Shown piece by piece: positions 4,817-16,708 of a stretch of DNA of 50,963 bases (positions within the stretch are counted from its first letter, which is position 1; every line of letters starts with the position of its first letter). Source of the DNA: a virus; IMG/VR virus record IMGVR_UViG_3300044825_001111, positions 1 to 50,963 of that record; one strand, written 5' to 3'. The notes under the pieces are model-generated. The model was not told where the DNA came from. It searched no databases and saw only the letters and a list, made by a program, of their open reading frames with translations. Position numbers and translations under genes: made by a program.

Positions 4817-4950
4817 GGGATGCCACCGTTGCGCTCGACCCAATACATTTCCGGCAGGGTGCGGAACTGCTTGCTGCCGACTTTCAGCGCCAGCATGTGT
4901 AGCGCGAGGTGGTAGCAATCGAGCGCGTCTTCCCGCCAGTCGTAGGTCAA
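4813..4950 (-). CDS. Small protein, 45 aa
   Basis: TTG start at 4950 lies inside the last codons of the HNH-AP2 gene. The product begins (M)TYDWREDALDCYHLALHM and ends ERNGGIP, and its TGA overlaps the ATG of the next gene (ATGA). The coupling at both ends and a non-random composition argue that it is real. No family recognised. Confidence 0.5.
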   Translation of the reverse strand: MTYDWREDALDCYHLALHMLALKVGSKQFRTLPEMYWVERNGGIP

Positions 4951-5465
4951 AGCATCACCTCCTGTTTCGCAGGAGCGGGGCGCTCGATGAAGGGATGCAG
5001 ATTAGCTGCCGCTTTTTCGTATGCTTGGCGGGCCTCGTCCTGAGTGTTGAACCGGCCAAGGAAATGGCGCTTACCATTTGCGCGAATAAGGGCCTGCCAC
5101 TTTTTGTAAGTTTTATGGAGATGCCAGCCGCCGCCATGCCGAATGTTCTGCATGTTTTCGGATCGCGTGGCGTGACGCAGATTGGCTAACCTATTGTCGG
5201 ATGGATTGCCGTTAATGTGATCCACTTCATCGTGCGGCCAAACGCCTGTCGCATAGTAAATTGCAAGCCTGTGTCCGAGATACCAATGGCCGTCGAGAGA
5301 TATAAGTTCGTAGCCCGCGCTATTGAAATAGCCAGCCCGACTCCCCGCGGCCTTTCGTCCGCCACTCTTTAGCCGGGTGAATATGCCAGTTTCCGAATTG
5401 TAGCTGACCAGTTCTTTCAAACGGCCAAGCGGCATCTGCTCCTGTGAGCGGCGCTGCACAGTCAT
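4947..5465 (-). CDS. HNH endonuclease with AP2 domain, 172 aa
   Basis: Central HNH_3 motif (HRLAIYYATG, then DEVDHINGNPSDNRLANLR) followed by an AP2-type DNA-binding domain (YKKWQALIRANGKRHFLGRF, DEARQAYEKAA). This is the classic free-standing phage homing endonuclease, which cuts related phage DNA and promotes its own spread. ATG at 5465 overlaps the stop of the methyltransferase (ATGA). The local base composition looks AT-richer than the helicase region, in line with mobility. Confidence 0.88.
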   Translation of the reverse strand: MTVQRRSQEQMPLGRLKELVSYNSETGIFTRLKSGGRKAAGSRAGYFNSAGYELISLDGHWYLGHRLAIYYATGVWPHDEVDHINGNPSDNRLANLRHATRSENMQNIRHGGGWHLHKTYKKWQALIRANGKRHFLGRFNTQDEARQAYEKAAANLHPFIERPAPAKQEVML

Positions 5466-6157
5466 AACATTTTCTCCTGAACTGGCGGTTTAGGCCGCTC
5501 TTGAAAAAAATCAGGCTGCTTATAGGCTTGCTCGATCCGGCGACACGCTATGTCAAAGTACTTCGGCTCTATCTCAATGCCGATGAACTTGCGGCCTAGC
5601 TTGGCGCAGGCGACTCCAGTGGTGCCGCTGCCCATGAAGGGGTCGAGGATGGTTTCAGCTTTCGGAACCCGCAAAACAAAATGCTCCACGAGCCATGCTG
5701 GCTTTTGATGCGGGTGAACTCTTCCTTTACTTTCCCAAGAAACAACAACTTCGCCTCTCAATACACCTTCGCCGCGCGAGCCTTCCCAGCCCCTTCCTCC
5801 GATGTAAGCTAACTCAAATGAAGGCTTCCACGGCATCGAAAGGTCGCCCATGCCAAATGCCGGGCCTTTGTCCCACACCACACAGGCGCGGGCGTTTGCA
5901 GTCGGAGGTGTCTTCCACGTCCCAAAGAACACAGACGGACGCTCGCCGCACCACTCAACAACCCAATCTCTTGCCTCGGTTGTCTCGTCGTTCTGGATAG
6001 TGGTTTTCTGCCAAGACGCGCCGTGATTACTGGCGTGAGAAATCCCATAAGGCGGATCAGTCACCACGGCATCGACCTTGCCAAGCGTGGGGAGAATGTC
6101 GCGGCAGTCGCCTAAGTAAAGAACGGCATCGCCTATGGTTTCAACGCGCACCGTCAC
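5462..6157 (-). CDS. DNA methyltransferase (N6-adenine/N4-cytosine class), 231 aa
   Basis: Catalytic motif DPPYG is at about residues 34-38 and the SAM-binding motif DPFMGSGTTG is near the C-terminus, with EIEPKYFDIACRRI after it. Catalytic motif first and SAM motif last is the beta-class order. GTG at 6157 overlaps the stop of the winged-helix gene (GTGA). No restriction partner lies nearby, so this is an orphan enzyme that may protect phage DNA or regulate expression. Target site unknown. Confidence 0.88.
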   Translation of the reverse strand: MTVRVETIGDAVLYLGDCRDILPTLGKVDAVVTDPPYGISHASNHGASWQKTTIQNDETTEARDWVVEWCGERPSVFFGTWKTPPTANARACVVWDKGPAFGMGDLSMPWKPSFELAYIGGRGWEGSRGEGVLRGEVVVSWESKGRVHPHQKPAWLVEHFVLRVPKAETILDPFMGSGTTGVACAKLGRKFIGIEIEPKYFDIACRRIEQAYKQPDFFQERPKPPVQEKML

Positions 6158-6522
6158 CGCCAGCCCCCGATCTTCGCCCGCAACAGGTCCAGCGCCTTGC
6201 CTTCGACGCAGTAGCCGATGCCGTAGAGCGTCCTGATGTAGAGCCACGGTAGCTTGCGCCTCACGCGCTTGACCTGGCTGTCGGCAAGCCTGAGATCGCC
6301 GTCCTCGACGTGGCAGCACAGCGCCGCGATCCGCTCCCGCGTCATGGTCTTGCCGGTTGCAAATGCTCGAAGCAGCTTGGCCTCGCCAATGGTGCAGCGC
6401 AGGCCTCGCATGATAGCGGCCAGCTCGTCGGCGTCGCTGTTGACGCGGTAGACCTCAAGCTCGGCTTCGAGCGCCTCGACCTTCTGGCGCAGCTGCGTAA
6501 CCTCTTGCTGGTAGGTGTTCAT
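6154..6522 (-). CDS. Coiled-coil plus winged-helix DNA-binding protein, 122 aa
   Basis: Residues 1-35 form a heptad-like coiled coil (QEVTQLRQKVEALEAELEVY). The C-terminal half (SQVKRVRRKLP, IRTLYGIGYCVEG) resembles the OmpR/PhoB winged helix, where the recognition helix and the YGxGY hairpin contact DNA. There is no receiver domain. Translation is coupled to the VRR-NUC gene (ATGA at 6522). It is probably a phage transcription regulator; its target is unknown. Confidence 0.65.
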   Translation of the reverse strand: MNTYQQEVTQLRQKVEALEAELEVYRVNSDADELAAIMRGLRCTIGEAKLLRAFATGKTMTRERIAALCCHVEDGDLRLADSQVKRVRRKLPWLYIRTLYGIGYCVEGKALDLLRAKIGGWR

Positions 6523-8456: not shown

Positions 8457-8677
8457 GCGGCACTTTCCCGCTTCTTCGCGTGAAGGCTTACCAGCACATC
8501 AAAGTTCACGCCGCGAATGCCGCGATCCTTGCAGGCATCGACAAGCGCCGGCCAATAGACGACCGGAATAGATTGGCGCCGCTTCATTTCAGAAGCGGCA
8601 GATGGCTTGACGCCAAGCAGCGCAGCAACCTTGCCGCTGCCGCCCAATTCGTCAAAAATAGCGTTGATGCTTTCCAT
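8453..8677 (-). CDS. Cro-like DNA-binding protein (YdaS type), 74 aa
   Basis: Starts MESINAIFDELGG, with a helix-turn-helix segment (GKVAALLGVKPSAASEMKRR, residues about 13-32), then VVYWPALVDAC. This is the layout of YdaS/Cro-type regulators. The longer frame to 8695 is less likely because it would begin inside the operator-promoter region. As the first leftward gene, divergent from the repressor, it should shut off repressor synthesis and commit the phage to lytic growth. Confidence 0.8.
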   Translation of the reverse strand: MESINAIFDELGGSGKVAALLGVKPSAASEMKRRQSIPVVYWPALVDACKDRGIRGVNFDVLVSLHAKKRESAA

Positions 8678-8689
8678 GAACACGACCAC

Positions 8690-8715
8690 TAACACGCAGC
8701 GTGTAAGTCTGTCAA
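8690..8715 (-). promoter_or_regulatory. Leftward early promoter with operator 1
   Basis: Minus-strand TTGACA (8715-8710) is a perfect -35 box. About 17 nt further is a weak -10. Between them lies TAACACGCAGCGTGTAAG (8690-8707), whose core ACACGC-A-GCGTGT is a perfect inverted repeat. A repressor bound here would block the promoter. The same operator form recurs at 9131-9148. Confidence 0.7.
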
Positions 8716-8753
8716 CATTATTTGTGGAAGCGTCGGCTGTAACGTTTCAGCCT

Positions 8754-9086
8754 ATGGAAACGATGCACTCCAGGCTGCGCGCGGCCCGCCTCAGCGCGGG
8801 GTTCAAGCCTGCAAAGGGCGCTGCCGAAAGGCACGGCTGGCCTGTCTCGACATACTCGGCACATGAAAACGGCCAGAACGATTACGGGCCGGAAGTCGCT
8901 GAAAACTATGCCAAAGCCTTTAGAACAAGCGCGAAATGGCTGTTGCTTGGCGGCGATTTAGTGGCTGATGAAGTCGCAGAGGTGGCGGCAGACCTGCGCG
9001 AACTCCCGGAAGCCGAGTCGCGGGCGATCTTGGCGGAACTTCGGACCATGATTAAGACGGCCAAGATGCTCGGAAAGGCTCGTTAA
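8754..9086 (+). CDS. CI-like XRE-family repressor, 110 aa
   Basis: Starts METMHSRLRAARLSAGF. An XRE helix-turn-helix follows (PAKGAAERHGWPVSTYSAHE), then YAKAFRTSAKWLLLGG, common in short prophage repressors. There is no LexA/S24 peptidase domain, so induction cannot be by RecA-driven self-cleavage of this protein. No good ribosome site precedes the ATG, so a leaderless or weakly translated message is possible. Two matching operators flank the gene. Confidence 0.8.
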   Translation: METMHSRLRAARLSAGFKPAKGAAERHGWPVSTYSAHENGQNDYGPEVAENYAKAFRTSAKWLLLGGDLVADEVAEVAADLRELPEAESRAILAELRTMIKTAKMLGKAR

Positions 9087-10960: not shown

Positions 10961-12001
10961 ATGAACGAAGTCGCCACGAAAGCCCCGAACCCGCTGGTCG
11001 CTTTGCACGACCAGATGGAACGCCGAACCGGCCAGTTCGCCGCCGCCCTGCCCGCTCACATTCCCGCCGAGAGGTTCAAGCGGGTGCTGCTGACCGCGGT
11101 CCAGAATAACCCGACGTTGGCCACCGCTGACCGGCAGACCTTCTTCAACAGCGCGATGAAGGCGGCCCAGGACGGACTTCTGCCGGACGGCCGCGAAGGC
11201 GCGATGGTGATCTACAAGACCAAGGTCAAAGAGGGCAACCGCGAGTTCTGGGTCGACGCCGTCCAATGGATGCCCATGATCGGCGGGATCCGCAAGAAGG
11301 TCCGCAACTCGGGCGAGATCGAGACATGGGACGCCCATTGCGTCTACGAGAACGACGCCTTCGAGTTCGAGCTCGGCGACAGCCCCTACATCAAGCACAA
11401 GCCCGCACTGAGCGGCGACCGCGGCAAGATCATCGCCGCCTATTCGGTGGCGACTTTGAAGAGCGGCGAGAAGTCCCGCGAGGTCATGTCGATCGACGAG
11501 ATCATGGCGGTCTGGCGGAAGTCGTCGAAGCAGAAGGACAAGGAAGGGAACCCGAGCGGCCCCTGGAAGGACCACCTCGGCGAAATGTGTCGCAAGACGG
11601 TCGCGCGCCGGCACTCCAAGGTGCTGCCGATGTCGACCGATCTGGACGACCTGCTGCGCCGGGACGATGACCTGTACGACATGGAAGGCGCCAGCGACAA
11701 GGCATTGCCGCCGTCTGCGAAGCGCCCGCAGATCAGCGACTTTGCCGAACTGCCACAGAACCCGGTGATGACCGAGGATCCGAAGGCGCCGAAGCCCGAA
11801 CCCGCCGCCGAGAAGGTCGACGAGGAAACCGGCGAGATCACCGAGGTCGGCGTTCCCGAGGCGATGGAGCTGGGCCGCCAGCGTCGCAAGGACAATCGGC
11901 CCAGGCGCCCGATCGACGGGCTGACCGAAGCCGAGGCCTCGGCATTTCTGCAGGGCTGGGACAGCGAAGACGATCTCATACAGCAGGCCGCGAAACGTTG
12001 A
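10961..12001 (+). CDS. recT: RecT-family single-strand annealing protein, 346 aa
   Basis: Shows the RecT core: FFNSAMKAAQDGLLPDGREG, then QWMPMIGGIRKKVRNSGEIE, KGEKSREVMSIDEI-like strands and WKDHLGEMCRKTVARRHSKV. RecT coats single-stranded DNA and anneals it to a complementary strand, which drives phage recombination. The family core ends near residue 230, and a charged, Pro-rich tail of about 110 residues follows. No RecE-type exonuclease gene is adjacent; the VRR-NUC protein is in the other operon. Confidence 0.93.
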   Translation: MNEVATKAPNPLVALHDQMERRTGQFAAALPAHIPAERFKRVLLTAVQNNPTLATADRQTFFNSAMKAAQDGLLPDGREGAMVIYKTKVKEGNREFWVDAVQWMPMIGGIRKKVRNSGEIETWDAHCVYENDAFEFELGDSPYIKHKPALSGDRGKIIAAYSVATLKSGEKSREVMSIDEIMAVWRKSSKQKDKEGNPSGPWKDHLGEMCRKTVARRHSKVLPMSTDLDDLLRRDDDLYDMEGASDKALPPSAKRPQISDFAELPQNPVMTEDPKAPKPEPAAEKVDEETGEITEVGVPEAMELGRQRRKDNRPRRPIDGLTEAEASAFLQGWDSEDDLIQQAAKR

Positions 12002-12033
12002 ACGTGCATAAGCAAACCAGACAGGAGAACGAA

Positions 12034-12786
12034 ATGGCTAAGAACGAAACGACTGCGACACTCCACATCGACCCGCTCAAGCAGGGCCGCGTCAAGATGC
12101 GGATCATTGGCTCCACGCCGATGTTCTTCAACGCGATGAGCGCCAAGGCGAAGCGATCGCTGCTGCTTGGCGGCGGCAAGAAGACTGCGGCCGAGAAGAA
12201 GGAGATCAAGCATGATCCCGAGGCCGAGTTCCGCGACAGCACCTATCGGTCGCAGTCAGGCCCGACGCTGCTGGTGTTCCCGGCGCCCGGCATCAAGAAT
12301 GCGATGGCGACCGCCGCACTCGTCACCGACGGCGTGAAGAAAACCGACGTGCAGCGGCTGATCTTCTTGCCGCAGGAAAAGGTATCGATCTGGGGTCGGC
12401 CGTACCTGCGGATGGACGTGGTTCGCAGCGCCGACATGAACAAAACGCCAGACGTTCGGACGCGCGCTTTCCTGCCGCGCTGGTGCGCCGAGGTGGACTT
12501 CGCCTTTGTGACGCCGAGCCTGTCGGTTCACTCGATCGCCTCGCTGCTGGCGAACGCCGGGCTGGTGTCGGGGATCGGCGACTTCCGGCAGGAAAAGGGC
12601 AAAGGCAGCTATGGAACCTTCCGCATTGTCTCGGACGAGGACGACGAAGCGCTCTGGAAGGAACTAACCGAAAGCGAAGGGCGCGAGTGCCAAGAGGCGG
12701 CGATGGCCGATCCTCATGCGTTTGATTCCGAAACGCAGGAACTGTGGGCGATGCTTCGTCAGGAGCGGATGCGCAGGGCGGCGTGA
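12034..12786 (+). CDS. Conserved-looking protein downstream of recT, 250 aa
   Basis: ATG at 12034 has AGGAGAA upstream and is preferred over 11998. The sequence has a well-ordered middle (MRIIGSTPMFFNAMS, FPAPGIKNAMATAALVTDGV, YLRMDVVRSADMN) and an end of DFRQEKGKGSYGTFRIV before an acidic tail. I recognise it as a type seen beside phage recombination genes but know no function. It ends where the repeat tract begins. Confidence 0.75.
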   Translation: MAKNETTATLHIDPLKQGRVKMRIIGSTPMFFNAMSAKAKRSLLLGGGKKTAAEKKEIKHDPEAEFRDSTYRSQSGPTLLVFPAPGIKNAMATAALVTDGVKKTDVQRLIFLPQEKVSIWGRPYLRMDVVRSADMNKTPDVRTRAFLPRWCAEVDFAFVTPSLSVHSIASLLANAGLVSGIGDFRQEKGKGSYGTFRIVSDEDDEALWKELTESEGRECQEAAMADPHAFDSETQELWAMLRQERMRRAA

Positions 12787-13292
12787 TGAGCTTGGTCGAG
12801 GTGAGGCACGGCCGGTCGAGATCTGGATGGGCGCGGTCAGGCATGGCGGTCGGCGTTAGGAACGGCGGGGTGTGTCCCGCAGAGTTATGGCTTGGCGGTC
12901 GGGGCACGGTTCGGCACGGCGGCGCGGGTCATGGAATGGCGGTCCTGGAGAGGCTGGTTCTGGTCAGGCGCTGCACGTCCGGTCAAGGCGGTCGAGGACG
13001 GACAGGCCCGGCAGGGACCGGCCGGATTGGTCACGGCACGGGTCAGGCGGTCGCGGTTTGGCCTCGCGCTTCGGGGCTGGGTGAGTTGAGGTGCGGCGAG
13101 GTCTGGCGGTCCTGGTCGGGCCGGGCCTGCAGCGGAGAGGCGCGACATGGCGAGTCGCGTTCAGTTCCGGCTGGGCGGTCAAGGTACGTCGTGGCTGTGT
13201 TTGGCGTGGTGGCGAATGGTCTGGCGACGCAAGGCGGTCGAGGACTGGCATCGCGTGGACTGGCAGGGTTTGGCGCGGGCTGGCGGTCATGA
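12786..13292 (+). CDS. Possible low-complexity ORF inside the repeat tract, 168 aa
   Basis: The ATG at 12786 overlaps the preceding TGA (TGATG), so coupled translation is possible. The product is almost only Gly, Arg, Ser, Ala, Val and Trp, with no recognisable fold. Open frames exist on both strands here because the DNA is G-rich and short-periodic. It is probably not a functional protein, but translation through the tract cannot be excluded. Confidence 0.2.
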   Translation: MSLVEVRHGRSRSGWARSGMAVGVRNGGVCPAELWLGGRGTVRHGGAGHGMAVLERLVLVRRCTSGQGGRGRTGPAGTGRIGHGTGQAVAVWPRASGLGELRCGEVWRSWSGRACSGEARHGESRSVPAGRSRYVVAVFGVVANGLATQGGRGLASRGLAGFGAGWRS

Positions 13293-13332
13293 AGGGGAAT
13301 GTTCTGGCGCGGCCCGGAGTGTCGCGGCGGTC
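12845..13332 (+). repeat. Pentamer-periodic G-rich repeat tract with ten GGCGGTC cores
   Basis: GGCGGTC occurs at 12845, 12894, 12938, 12987, 13046, 13105, 13174, 13233, 13282 and 13326. Successive starts are 49, 44, 49, 59, 59, 69, 59, 49 and 44 nt apart, all equal to 5n+4. The DNA between reads as GGTC followed by n pentamers of mainly NNGGN (n = 9, 8, 9, 11, 11, 13, 11, 9, 8). About 55 of 89 pentamers keep GG in phase by hand count. The plus strand is far richer in G than C. The non-coding stretch 12787-13373 holds this tract and nothing else I can support. Confidence 0.8.
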
Positions 13333-13373
13333 AAGGCAAGCATGGAAACGGAACGGCTTGGATAGGACAGACA

Positions 13374-13901
13374 ATGGCGAAGTTTGACAGAACTTACCGA
13401 CAAAAGATCGTCGACGAATACCTCAACGCGACGGGCGAGAACACTTTCGTGCCCGCCGCTTTCATCGACTGGCTGCGCGATCAGCCAGACCATCGGGCTT
13501 ATCCGATCTTCTTCTCCAAATCCGACGAGGACGCGGCTGCAGAATACCGGATCAACCTGGCCCGGCAGTTCGTCAGCGGCTTGCGGGTGAAGATCCGCAT
13601 GACCGCGACGACGATCGACGAGGGCGGGCGCGAGGTGAAGGTGACGGAGAGCGCGGTGACCGCGGTGCGGGTGCCGGCCTTCTATTCACCACTGAGCGAG
13701 CGAAAGGGCGGCGGCGGTTATCACGCCTTCGACTCCGAGGATCCTGCGGCGTTGCGCGAGCTGCGCCGGCAGGCGGCGACCGATCTTCGCCGGTTCATCC
13801 ACCGGCACGAGGGCATCGCCAAGTTGAGCGGGATCTCGCTCGAAGCAATCAAGGTCATTGCTGCAGCGTTTGACGCACTCGACGTCAGCGAGGCGGCGTG
13901 A
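13374..13901 (+). CDS. Hypothetical protein, 175 aa
   Basis: ATG at 13374, just past the repeat tract, with a weak purine-rich leader. Begins MAKFDRTYRQKIVDEYLNAT, followed by FIDWLRDQPDHRAYPIFFSK and a beta strand segment, and ends in helices (DLRRFIHRHEGIAKLSGISL). It appears soluble and well folded. Similar proteins occur in early regions of alphaproteobacterial phages, but I know no function. Confidence 0.7.
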   Translation: MAKFDRTYRQKIVDEYLNATGENTFVPAAFIDWLRDQPDHRAYPIFFSKSDEDAAAEYRINLARQFVSGLRVKIRMTATTIDEGGREVKVTESAVTAVRVPAFYSPLSERKGGGGYHAFDSEDPAALRELRRQAATDLRRFIHRHEGIAKLSGISLEAIKVIAAAFDALDVSEAA

Positions 13902-13984
13902 TGGTCACGGCGGTCATGCCCCGGATGGGTAAGGTGCGGAACGGCGTATCTCGGAATGAACTGGAAGCGGCAAAGGAGGCCACC

Positions 13985-14131
13985 ATGGCGAAAGAGGCAA
14001 CGTCGAAGCGGGTCGCGCGCATCGCGGCGAAGGTGCTCAAGCAGAAGGATCTGTTCGGGCCGGACATCCTGGCGCTGGCGGCGAGCTGCCTGACCCAGCG
14101 CGAGCCGAAGAAGAAGCCAGCCAAGAAGTAG
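13985..14131 (+). CDS. Small basic protein, 48 aa
   Basis: ATG at 13985 is preceded by AAAGGAGG at good spacing, so this start is preferred over the frame opening at 13898. The product, MAKEATSKRVARIAAKVLKQ onward with a KKKPAKK tail, is Lys/Ala rich and could bind DNA. Function unknown. Confidence 0.6.
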   Translation: MAKEATSKRVARIAAKVLKQKDLFGPDILALAASCLTQREPKKKPAKK

Positions 14132-14165
14132 TGCAGTGCAGTAACCCCAACAGGAGAATGAACCG

Positions 14166-14369
14166 ATGAAGTATCTACTTGCAGCAATCGCGATCGCGGC
14201 CATTACGACCCAGTCGCCGGCCTTCGACAAGCCCGCCTATGAAGCCGCGAAGCAGCAATGGAAGTCGGACAAGGCCGACTGGAAGGTCGCCGAGGAAGCC
14301 TGGAAGGCGGACGGCAAGCCGGACCCGAAGCCTGCGAAGCCCGCGAAGCCGGACCGCTCGCTCTACTAA
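14166..14369 (+). CDS. Small exported protein, 67 aa
   Basis: AGGAG lies about 10 nt before the ATG. Residues 1-19 (MKYLLAAIAIAAITTQSPA) form a signal peptide. The mature part is Lys/Trp/Pro rich with repeated KADWK/KADG and KPAKPAKP. It may act in the periplasm or alter the envelope. No known family. Confidence 0.55.
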   Translation: MKYLLAAIAIAAITTQSPAFDKPAYEAAKQQWKSDKADWKVAEEAWKADGKPDPKPAKPAKPDRSLY

Positions 14370-16066: not shown

Positions 16067-16708
16067 ATGCGCCGCGCAGCCGTGCCAAAGGTAAGCCTGC
16101 CGCCGGACGGCGAGCGCCGCGAAAGGGTGCTGGAAAGAAATGAAGTCGCCCGCCTGCTATGGGCGGCGCGGAAGCTGAAACTGCCGCACGTCGCGCGGTT
16201 CATCCTGATCGGGATTTATACAGGGACACGTCACAATGCGATGCTTAGCCTTAGATGGACGTCAAATCTCAGTGGGGGAAGCGTTGAGCTTGAGAGAGGC
16301 ATTATCTTCCGCCGTGGAAGCGCTGAACGAGAAACAAGCAAGCGGCGTCCTCCTGTCAGGATACATGAACGGTTGGTGGCTCACCTACATAGATGGCAGC
16401 GGGAAGACAGTGCAGCAGGACTTTCCAGCGTCATCCACTACCAAGGCCAGCGCATCGGCAAAATGAAACGCGCCTGGGCCAGCGTCGTCAAGGAGGCCGG
16501 GCTGGGCCGGGACGTGACGCCGCATGTCTTGCGCCATAGCTGCGCGAGTCATGCCTTGTGGGGGCGCCCGGCAAAAGGTGCGCGACCGGAGACTAGGCCG
16601 ATGACTATTTGGGACGTTGCGGGCGTCGTGGGCGCGGATGCTTCCACAATTGAACGAATTTACGGGCATCATCAGCGCATAGATGAGGGAGACAGGAGAA
16701 CCGCATGA
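16067..16708 (+). CDS. int: Tyrosine integrase, catalytic domain only, 213 aa
   Basis: Catalytic residues visible: R55 in YTGTRHNAML, H153 and R156 in HVLRHSCAS, and Y199 in ERIYGHH. The usual fifth position (His or Trp in LGH) reads GA at 189-190; alphaproteobacterial relatives often have GM here. Family members carry 100-180 more N-terminal residues (arm- and core-binding domains). Here the ORF starts straight at the catalytic domain and the gene before it ends 2 nt upstream, leaving no room. It should recombine attP at 17666 with a host tRNA gene, if functional without the missing domain. Confidence 0.82.
   Translation: MRRAAVPKVSLPPDGERRERVLERNEVARLLWAARKLKLPHVARFILIGIYTGTRHNAMLSLRWTSNLSGGSVELERGIIFRRGSAERETSKRRPPVRIHERLVAHLHRWQREDSAAGLSSVIHYQGQRIGKMKRAWASVVKEAGLGRDVTPHVLRHSCASHALWGRPAKGARPETRPMTIWDVAGVVGADASTIERIYGHHQRIDEGDRRTA

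Follow-up and report, generated by a model that had tools for sequence, protein, structure and literature searches.

As listed in Table 1, the window (the whole stretch of 50,963 nucleotides analysed here, IMG/VR virus record IMGVR_UViG_3300044825_001111) has a G-rich pentamer tract that begins at the stop codon of the vipr gene and runs on the same strand as this gene. The names used in the table anticipate the interpretation developed below. A repressor-like gene at 8607-9086 and an integrase-like match at 16067-16708 suggest that the virus is a temperate phage. At 4947-6319, an HNH endonuclease is accompanied by a DNA methyltransferase.

Table 1. Features of the putative VIPR locus in the window, with predicted guides
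Feature	Position	Strand	Basis or target
recT, RecT-like annealing protein, phrog_148; a neighbour outside the system	10961..12001	+	
vipr, 250-aa Vipr protein (predicted RAMP fold) with a C-terminal G-loop GIGDFRQEKGKGSYGTF	12034..12786	+	PHROG, BLASTP, AF2 model
Putative vrRNA-type guide array, ten units of 8-13 NN-GGY pentamers, GGTC closing each	12794..13332	+	
Guide 1, reads E-E-T-R-E-L-W-A over the first 8 NN	12798..12847	+	Rival vipr C-terminus
Guide 2, reads G-Y-T-G-V-P-[DE]-[IM]	12852..12896	+	Without convincing exact target
Guide 3	12901..12940	+	None found in target search
Guide 4	12945..12989	+	Exact 16-nt IMG/VR matches taken as chance
Guide 5, perhaps degraded, with the GG phase inside the unit off by one	12994..13048	+	
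Guide 6, reads A-F-L-A-G-W-D-E-A-D	13053..13107	+	Exact 20/20 phrog_1366 target
Guide 7, reads L-R-R-L-A-[DE]-A-[IM]-[DE]-A-[HQ]-P	13112..13176	+	No exact IMG/VR match
Guide 8, reads K-T-V-W-F-V-G-I-L-D	13181..13235	+	Sak4-like recombinase genes
Guide 9	13240..13284	+	None found in target search
Guide 10	13289..13328	+	None found in target search
Partial trailing pentamer unit, extending into the following gene's ribosome-binding site	13333..13367	+	
vap candidate, 175-aa protein, kept beside vipr in relatives	13374..13901	+	
Second short array downstream of vap, GGTC at 13912 and about ten pentamers	about 13906..13975	+	

The first-pass annotation had reported ten GGCGGTC cores separated by spacings of the form 5n+4, and this was found to be exactly so. 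The cores lie at 12845, 12894, 12938, 12987, 13046, 13105, 13174, 13233, 13282, and 13326, and all nine spacings (49, 44, 49, 59, 59, 69, 59, 49, and 44) equal 4 modulo 5. An extra unit upstream obeys the same rule, as the distance from the GGTC at 12794 to that at 12848 is 54 (5x10+4). The regularity also withstood comparison with shuffled sequence. In 2000 dinucleotide-preserving shuffles of 12787-13373, none reached the 48 pairs of GG at a lag of 5 nt (shuffle mean 21.3, z 6.6), none matched the pairs at lags of 10 and 15 nt, and GGCGGTC occurred 0.4 times on average and 5 times at most, against 10 in the tract. Within GGTC, the pitch of the GG dinucleotides is 3 and then 6, not 5 and 5. 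Thus, each unit end resets the pentamer phase by -1, which gives the 5n+4 rule. BLASTN of the tract against phages gave no match, the Rfam 15 covariance models gave no significant match over 12000-14300, and a tandem array of identical repeats, as in the repeat-spacer arrangement of CRISPR, was absent from the tract.

Is the rule kept in other phages? An IMG/VR scan yielded 236 relatives of the window vipr gene, and in most of the 80 loci that were kept, GGYGGTC cores lie near vipr on the same strand with 5n+4 spacing. A scan of genome contigs yielded only four loci. In a homology check of the collected loci, 84 had vipr, and 81 of these proved to have array units. Among 331 unique spacings between GGYGGTC cores in the 84 related loci and the window, 274 equal 4 modulo 5, while 41 equal 3 modulo 5, the value expected where one separator between two units has degenerated. 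The pentamer consensus, compiled from 315 unique units with 2862 pentamers, is N-N-G(0.97)-G(0.84)/T(0.11)-Y(0.94), with highly variable NN. Thus, the core-spacing rule is common to related phages, and the earlier view was right that the units diverge in sequence under a spacing that is selected.

These comparisons bear on whether the tract is a functionless minisatellite or slippage product in decay. Some units and pentamers are indeed imperfect. The unit at 12994-13048 retains its total length, but inside it the GG phase is shifted by one. In several pentamers the second G is replaced by T or C, and GTGTC and CCGCA are among the imperfect ones. (The unit at 12994-13048 looks like the product of a 1-nt deletion offset by an insertion, so that the 5n+4 length is retained.) However, the units are unrelated to each other in sequence, 97% of the pentamers have G as their third base, the phase rule is kept across relatives, and the decoded units match rival genes in frame, as described below. 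Decay of a repeat can therefore be practically dismissed. In 58 near-identical unit pairs, the differences at pentamer positions 1 to 5 number 27, 16, 6, 42, and 56. Hence, in retained guides, base 3 is nearly fixed and bases 4 and 5 vary most; the lesser change of NN is expected if NN carries information. In the relative L001, vipr and vap are 92% and 91% identical to those of the window, but the array region is 54% identical. L001 carries variants of window guides 6, 7, and 8. Its guide 6 is longer by two pentamers, and as the difference is 10 nt, the rule is still obeyed.

The first-pass annotation had offered, as one idea, a loading or annealing tract for the neighboring RecT. In this explanation, which would also cover a recombination hotspot, the 5-nt steps are matched to the spacing of RecT monomers. 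The reported number of nucleotides per RecT monomer is close to a pitch of 5, and recT lies upstream of the array. The distribution of the genes is against it. All 90 loci with at least two array units have vipr, while recT is detectable in only one of them and ten have a Sak4 recombinase in its place; no association of arrays with recT independent of vipr was found in these loci. Arrays adjoin vipr homologs in actinophages as well, and the RecT explanation leaves both the GGTC phase reset and the in-frame NN matches to rival genes unaccounted for. I consider it very improbable. The constant neighbor of the tract is vipr.

What does vipr encode? VIPR (Viral Interference Programmable Repeat) systems were first reported in 2026 in a preprint (PMC13142463). 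As described there, they consist of a phage protein of the RAMP family, Vipr, and guide RNAs (vrRNAs) with about 9-16 tandem YNNGG (GGY/NN) repeats flanking vipr. On the DNA that the NN pairs read, one base is skipped at each step, as determined experimentally for Escherichia phage SUSP1 (KT454805), and the skipped base is mostly at the wobble position. The targets lie in phages or mobile elements that compete with the carrier, and other VIPRs are among them. The loci also carry a gene for a vipr-accessory protein (vap). A conserved structured 3′ tail is described for SUSP1-type vrRNAs, with array architecture differing among the seven types. From the preprint's description of a pair of neighboring genes with pentamer arrays on either side, the SUSP1 vipr was located in KT454805, and the 195-aa gene of the pair was taken as vipr. 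The window Vipr matches phrog_4652 at 3.6e-12, the same family that the SUSP1 Vipr matches at 1.4e-96. The two proteins match each other directly at 4e-5 in BLASTP and at 4.4e-7 in an hhalign profile comparison. An AlphaFold2 model of the window Vipr (mean pLDDT 72.6) has Csm3/Cas7-type subunits as its best PDB matches. Each of the 24 PDB matches at E<=0.001 is a CRISPR subunit of type III or VII, and a BFVD match bears the name "Cas system-associated RAMP superfamily protein". With modest TM-scores (about 0.3-0.4), the fold comparison supports this identity without deciding it, and the sequence family is the stronger test. The gene at 12034-12786 thus encodes a RAMP homolog with a G-loop, as the VIPR definition asks of the protein. 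The 175-aa gene adjoins vipr in most of the collected loci and occupies the vap position, while a fold search with its predicted model gave no match. No other cas gene was found among the neighboring genes searched.

Judging from these sequence comparisons, the tract and vipr very probably form a VIPR locus with an array of about ten gapped guide RNAs. This reading explains the 5n+4 rule, and a functional RNA had been among the options of the first-pass annotation. If the array consists of guides, the NN strings should spell sequences in other genomes with one base skipped per step. The NN strings of the units were searched against both strands of pooled phage DNA with arrays masked, and skip lengths were compared, using E-values that assume random bases. 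In the first pool, 7 of 191 guides had a match at E<0.01 with a skip of 1, while skips of 0, 2, and 4 gave 0, 0, and 1 guides and four permutations of the order gave 0, 0, 1, and 0. In a pool enlarged with added relatives and genome regions, the corresponding numbers were 11 of 217 guides with a skip of 1 and 0, 0, and 1 with skips of 0, 2, and 4, and ten permutations averaged 0.9. At the stricter threshold of E<0.001, they were 9 guides, 0, 0, and 0, and a permutation mean of 0.2. Since the genome regions of this pool were chosen with guide 8, and some loci were added because a Sak4 gene had come up as a match before, the E-value of guide 8 in the enlarged pool is not independent; the first pool is free of this bias. 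Matches with a skip of 3 were mostly similarity between unmasked arrays, and after masking this skip length was no longer considered.

All 11 best sites are in frame, with the skipped base at the third codon (wobble) position and the guide in the coding-strand sense. The 11 guides converge on five sites. One (KVVRMEADIR) is in the terminase small subunit (phrog_5601), and another (EVGQVRGP) is in the ORF that immediately follows, apparently the terminase large subunit. The other three, KTGKPDVRGA, K[TN]V[WI]FVGIL[DE], and GIVD[EQ]VITM, are in Sak4-like genes (phrog_124). For example, a guide of locus L009 matches sak4 at 22 of 22 bases, a guide of L067 matches the terminase small subunit at 20 of 20, and a guide of L047 matches the terminase large subunit. 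Altogether, the targets in other phages and bacterial genomes are in terS, terL, sak4, vipr, and ATPase-like genes. The origin of replication and the packaging signal, two further options of the first-pass annotation, were rejected like the RecT tract; they predict no such gapped matches to genes of other phages. The credible matches start at the first pentamer after a GGTC and end at or before the last pentamer preceding the next one; since they are confined in this way, the units look like discrete guides. As a side observation, the loci form a chain of conflict. A guide of L067 has its match in the small terminase subunit of L024, the VIPR guides of L024 match Sak4 genes, and some of the Sak4-bearing loci (among L093-L112) have vipr and arrays themselves.

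In the window, three of the ten guides (1, 6, and 8) have credible targets. The first eight NN of guide 1 agree in all 16 bases with the conserved vipr C-terminus of L001, L003, L005, L006, and L008-L011, where these genes encode EETRELWA, DETRELWA, or DDTRELWA; the last two NN of the guide mismatch. The window's own vipr reads SETQELWA there and differs at three of the 16 bases. For guide 6, two IMG/VR contigs that represent one and the same sequence contain an exact 20/20 match. The site, AFLAGWDEAD, is in frame at the C-terminus of a 440-aa P-loop ATPase-like protein (phrog_1366). By a rough estimate, less than one exact match is expected by chance, and the match carries weight since it is in frame and homologous to the tail of the window RecT. 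This RecT ends with AFLQGWDSED and agrees with guide 6 at 15 of 20 bases, with five mismatches. Thus, the window's own copies of these guide sites differ by 3-5 bases, and exact guides against rivals beside mismatched own copies suggest self-avoidance, for which two cases are no proof. A C-terminal module, NRPRR...AFLxGWDxxD, is common to the window RecT (11880-12001) and the otherwise different phrog_1366 P-loop protein (L226 4023-5345), which suggests that it may be a swappable tail of recombination proteins. Guide 8 matches Sak4-like genes at 19 of 20 bases in KNVWFVGILD and at 18 of 20 in KTVIFVGILE. When 385 alphaproteobacterial genomes were scanned with at most two mismatches, its pattern was found at 13 places in 12 genomes and the reversed pattern at one, a controlled comparison that is also free of the selection by guide 8. 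Ten of the 13 places were verified to be in frame in Sak4-like genes.

For the remaining seven guides, no convincing target was found. Exact IMG/VR scans with guides 7 and 8 gave no match, and guides 3, 5, 7, 9, and 10 have no convincing target. Guide 2 resembles a VRR-NUC-like endonuclease gene in frame at 15 of 18 bases. Its exact IMG/VR scan returned 7 stretches, in unrelated phages or with stop codons in the guide frame, which is chance level for 16 fixed bases, and its matches in the 385 genomes are mostly in host genes or short frames. The exact 16-nt matches of guide 4 are not in frame in a long ORF.

On these sequence grounds, the phage probably uses the guides against competing viruses, whose genes, those for recombination among them, it would recognize and silence. 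The array, vipr, and vap would probably be transcribed together, and each GGTC-delimited unit may be processed into one guide. The GGY of each pentamer would be the scaffold gripped by one RAMP subunit of Vipr. The two variable bases would pair with double-stranded DNA with one target base skipped per step, as demonstrated by experiment for the SUSP1 VIPR (PMC13142463) and supported here by the in-frame target matches. The -1 phase shift at GGTC would mark the unit end and terminate a Vipr filament. The bound Vipr probably represses transcription of the rival gene, by analogy to SUSP1 (PMC13142463). Could such guides act instead on mRNA, as antisense or in RNA targeting? The closest solved folds, the type III Csm3/Cas7 subunits, do bind RNA targets. 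However, guides in the coding-strand sense, as at all credible targets, cannot pair with the target mRNA, so that DNA is the likely target, and the SUSP1 VIPR is reported to bind double-stranded DNA in vitro (PMC13142463). Action on mRNA is therefore unlikely.

In a lineage of alphaproteobacterial phages, the locus adds independent sequence support for the gapped, RNA-guided code for reading DNA that was proposed very recently. In competing phages, the guides apparently aim at genes for recombination and packaging and at rival VIPR genes. Guide-target-self triplets for self/non-self tests are at hand for guide 1 (rival vipr and own vipr) and guide 6 (rival ATPase and own RecT).

How does the locus compare with known systems? 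Class 1 CRISPR-Cas (type III Csm3/Cas7) shares the RAMP fold, periodic unpaired guide positions, and RNA guidance with VIPR. In contrast, the window has neither CRISPR repeats nor other cas genes among the searched neighbors, and its system reads gapped two-base steps. The type II VIPR of SUSP1, as far as the preprint describes it (PMC13142463), shares with the window a Vipr of the same PHROG, NN/GGY pentamers, the 1-nt skip with the skipped base at the wobble position, a small gene at the vap position, and targets in competing mobile elements including other VIPRs. The vap candidate of the window has no recognizable homology to that of SUSP1, as the two match different PHROGs. The SUSP1 arrays, located at L081 27495-28035 and 29055-29515, encode four RNAs of about 100 nt with a 3′ tail each, whereas the window has ten or more units of 40-65 nt. 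These lie head to tail and abut through GGTC, with no structured 3′ tail. Thus, the tail-less GGTC-punctuated arrays differ from the SUSP1 type as the preprint describes it. The preprint also mentions "staggered arrays with overlapping vrRNAs" (PMC13142463, fig. S18), which resemble the window in being dense multi-guide arrays and possibly have the same architecture; unlike overlapping vrRNAs, however, the units of the window clade look discrete, with target matches that stop at GGTC boundaries. A bolder proposal, which I hold with somewhat less than even confidence, is that the window represents a distinct tail-less VIPR architecture. Its sole punctuation would be a -1 phase slip, the 4-nt GGTC here and GGCAGG in actinophages, which shows Vipr filaments the guide end, and its guides would be directed against conserved motifs in the recombination and packaging genes of rivals, from which the corresponding sites in the phage's own homologs deviate by a few bases.

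The vipr homologs of actinophages are in 27 Mycobacterium and 5 Gordonia phage records. Dense NN-GGC arrays were seen in Mycobacterium phage Brocalys (L224 2627-2860, gp45 region), Gordonia phage Ecliptus (L225 3625-3850), and Gordonia phage UmaThurman (L223 3615-3975). Their units are set off by GGCAGG (pitch 4), which shifts the phase by -1 as GGTC does. The sequenced phages of Mycobacterium smegmatis and Gordonia with related loci can be grown and may serve as convenient laboratory models. A 3.4-kb contig binned as Candidatus Nealsonbacteria (L082) also carries vipr and an array; most likely, it is a misbinned alphaproteobacterial phage contig.
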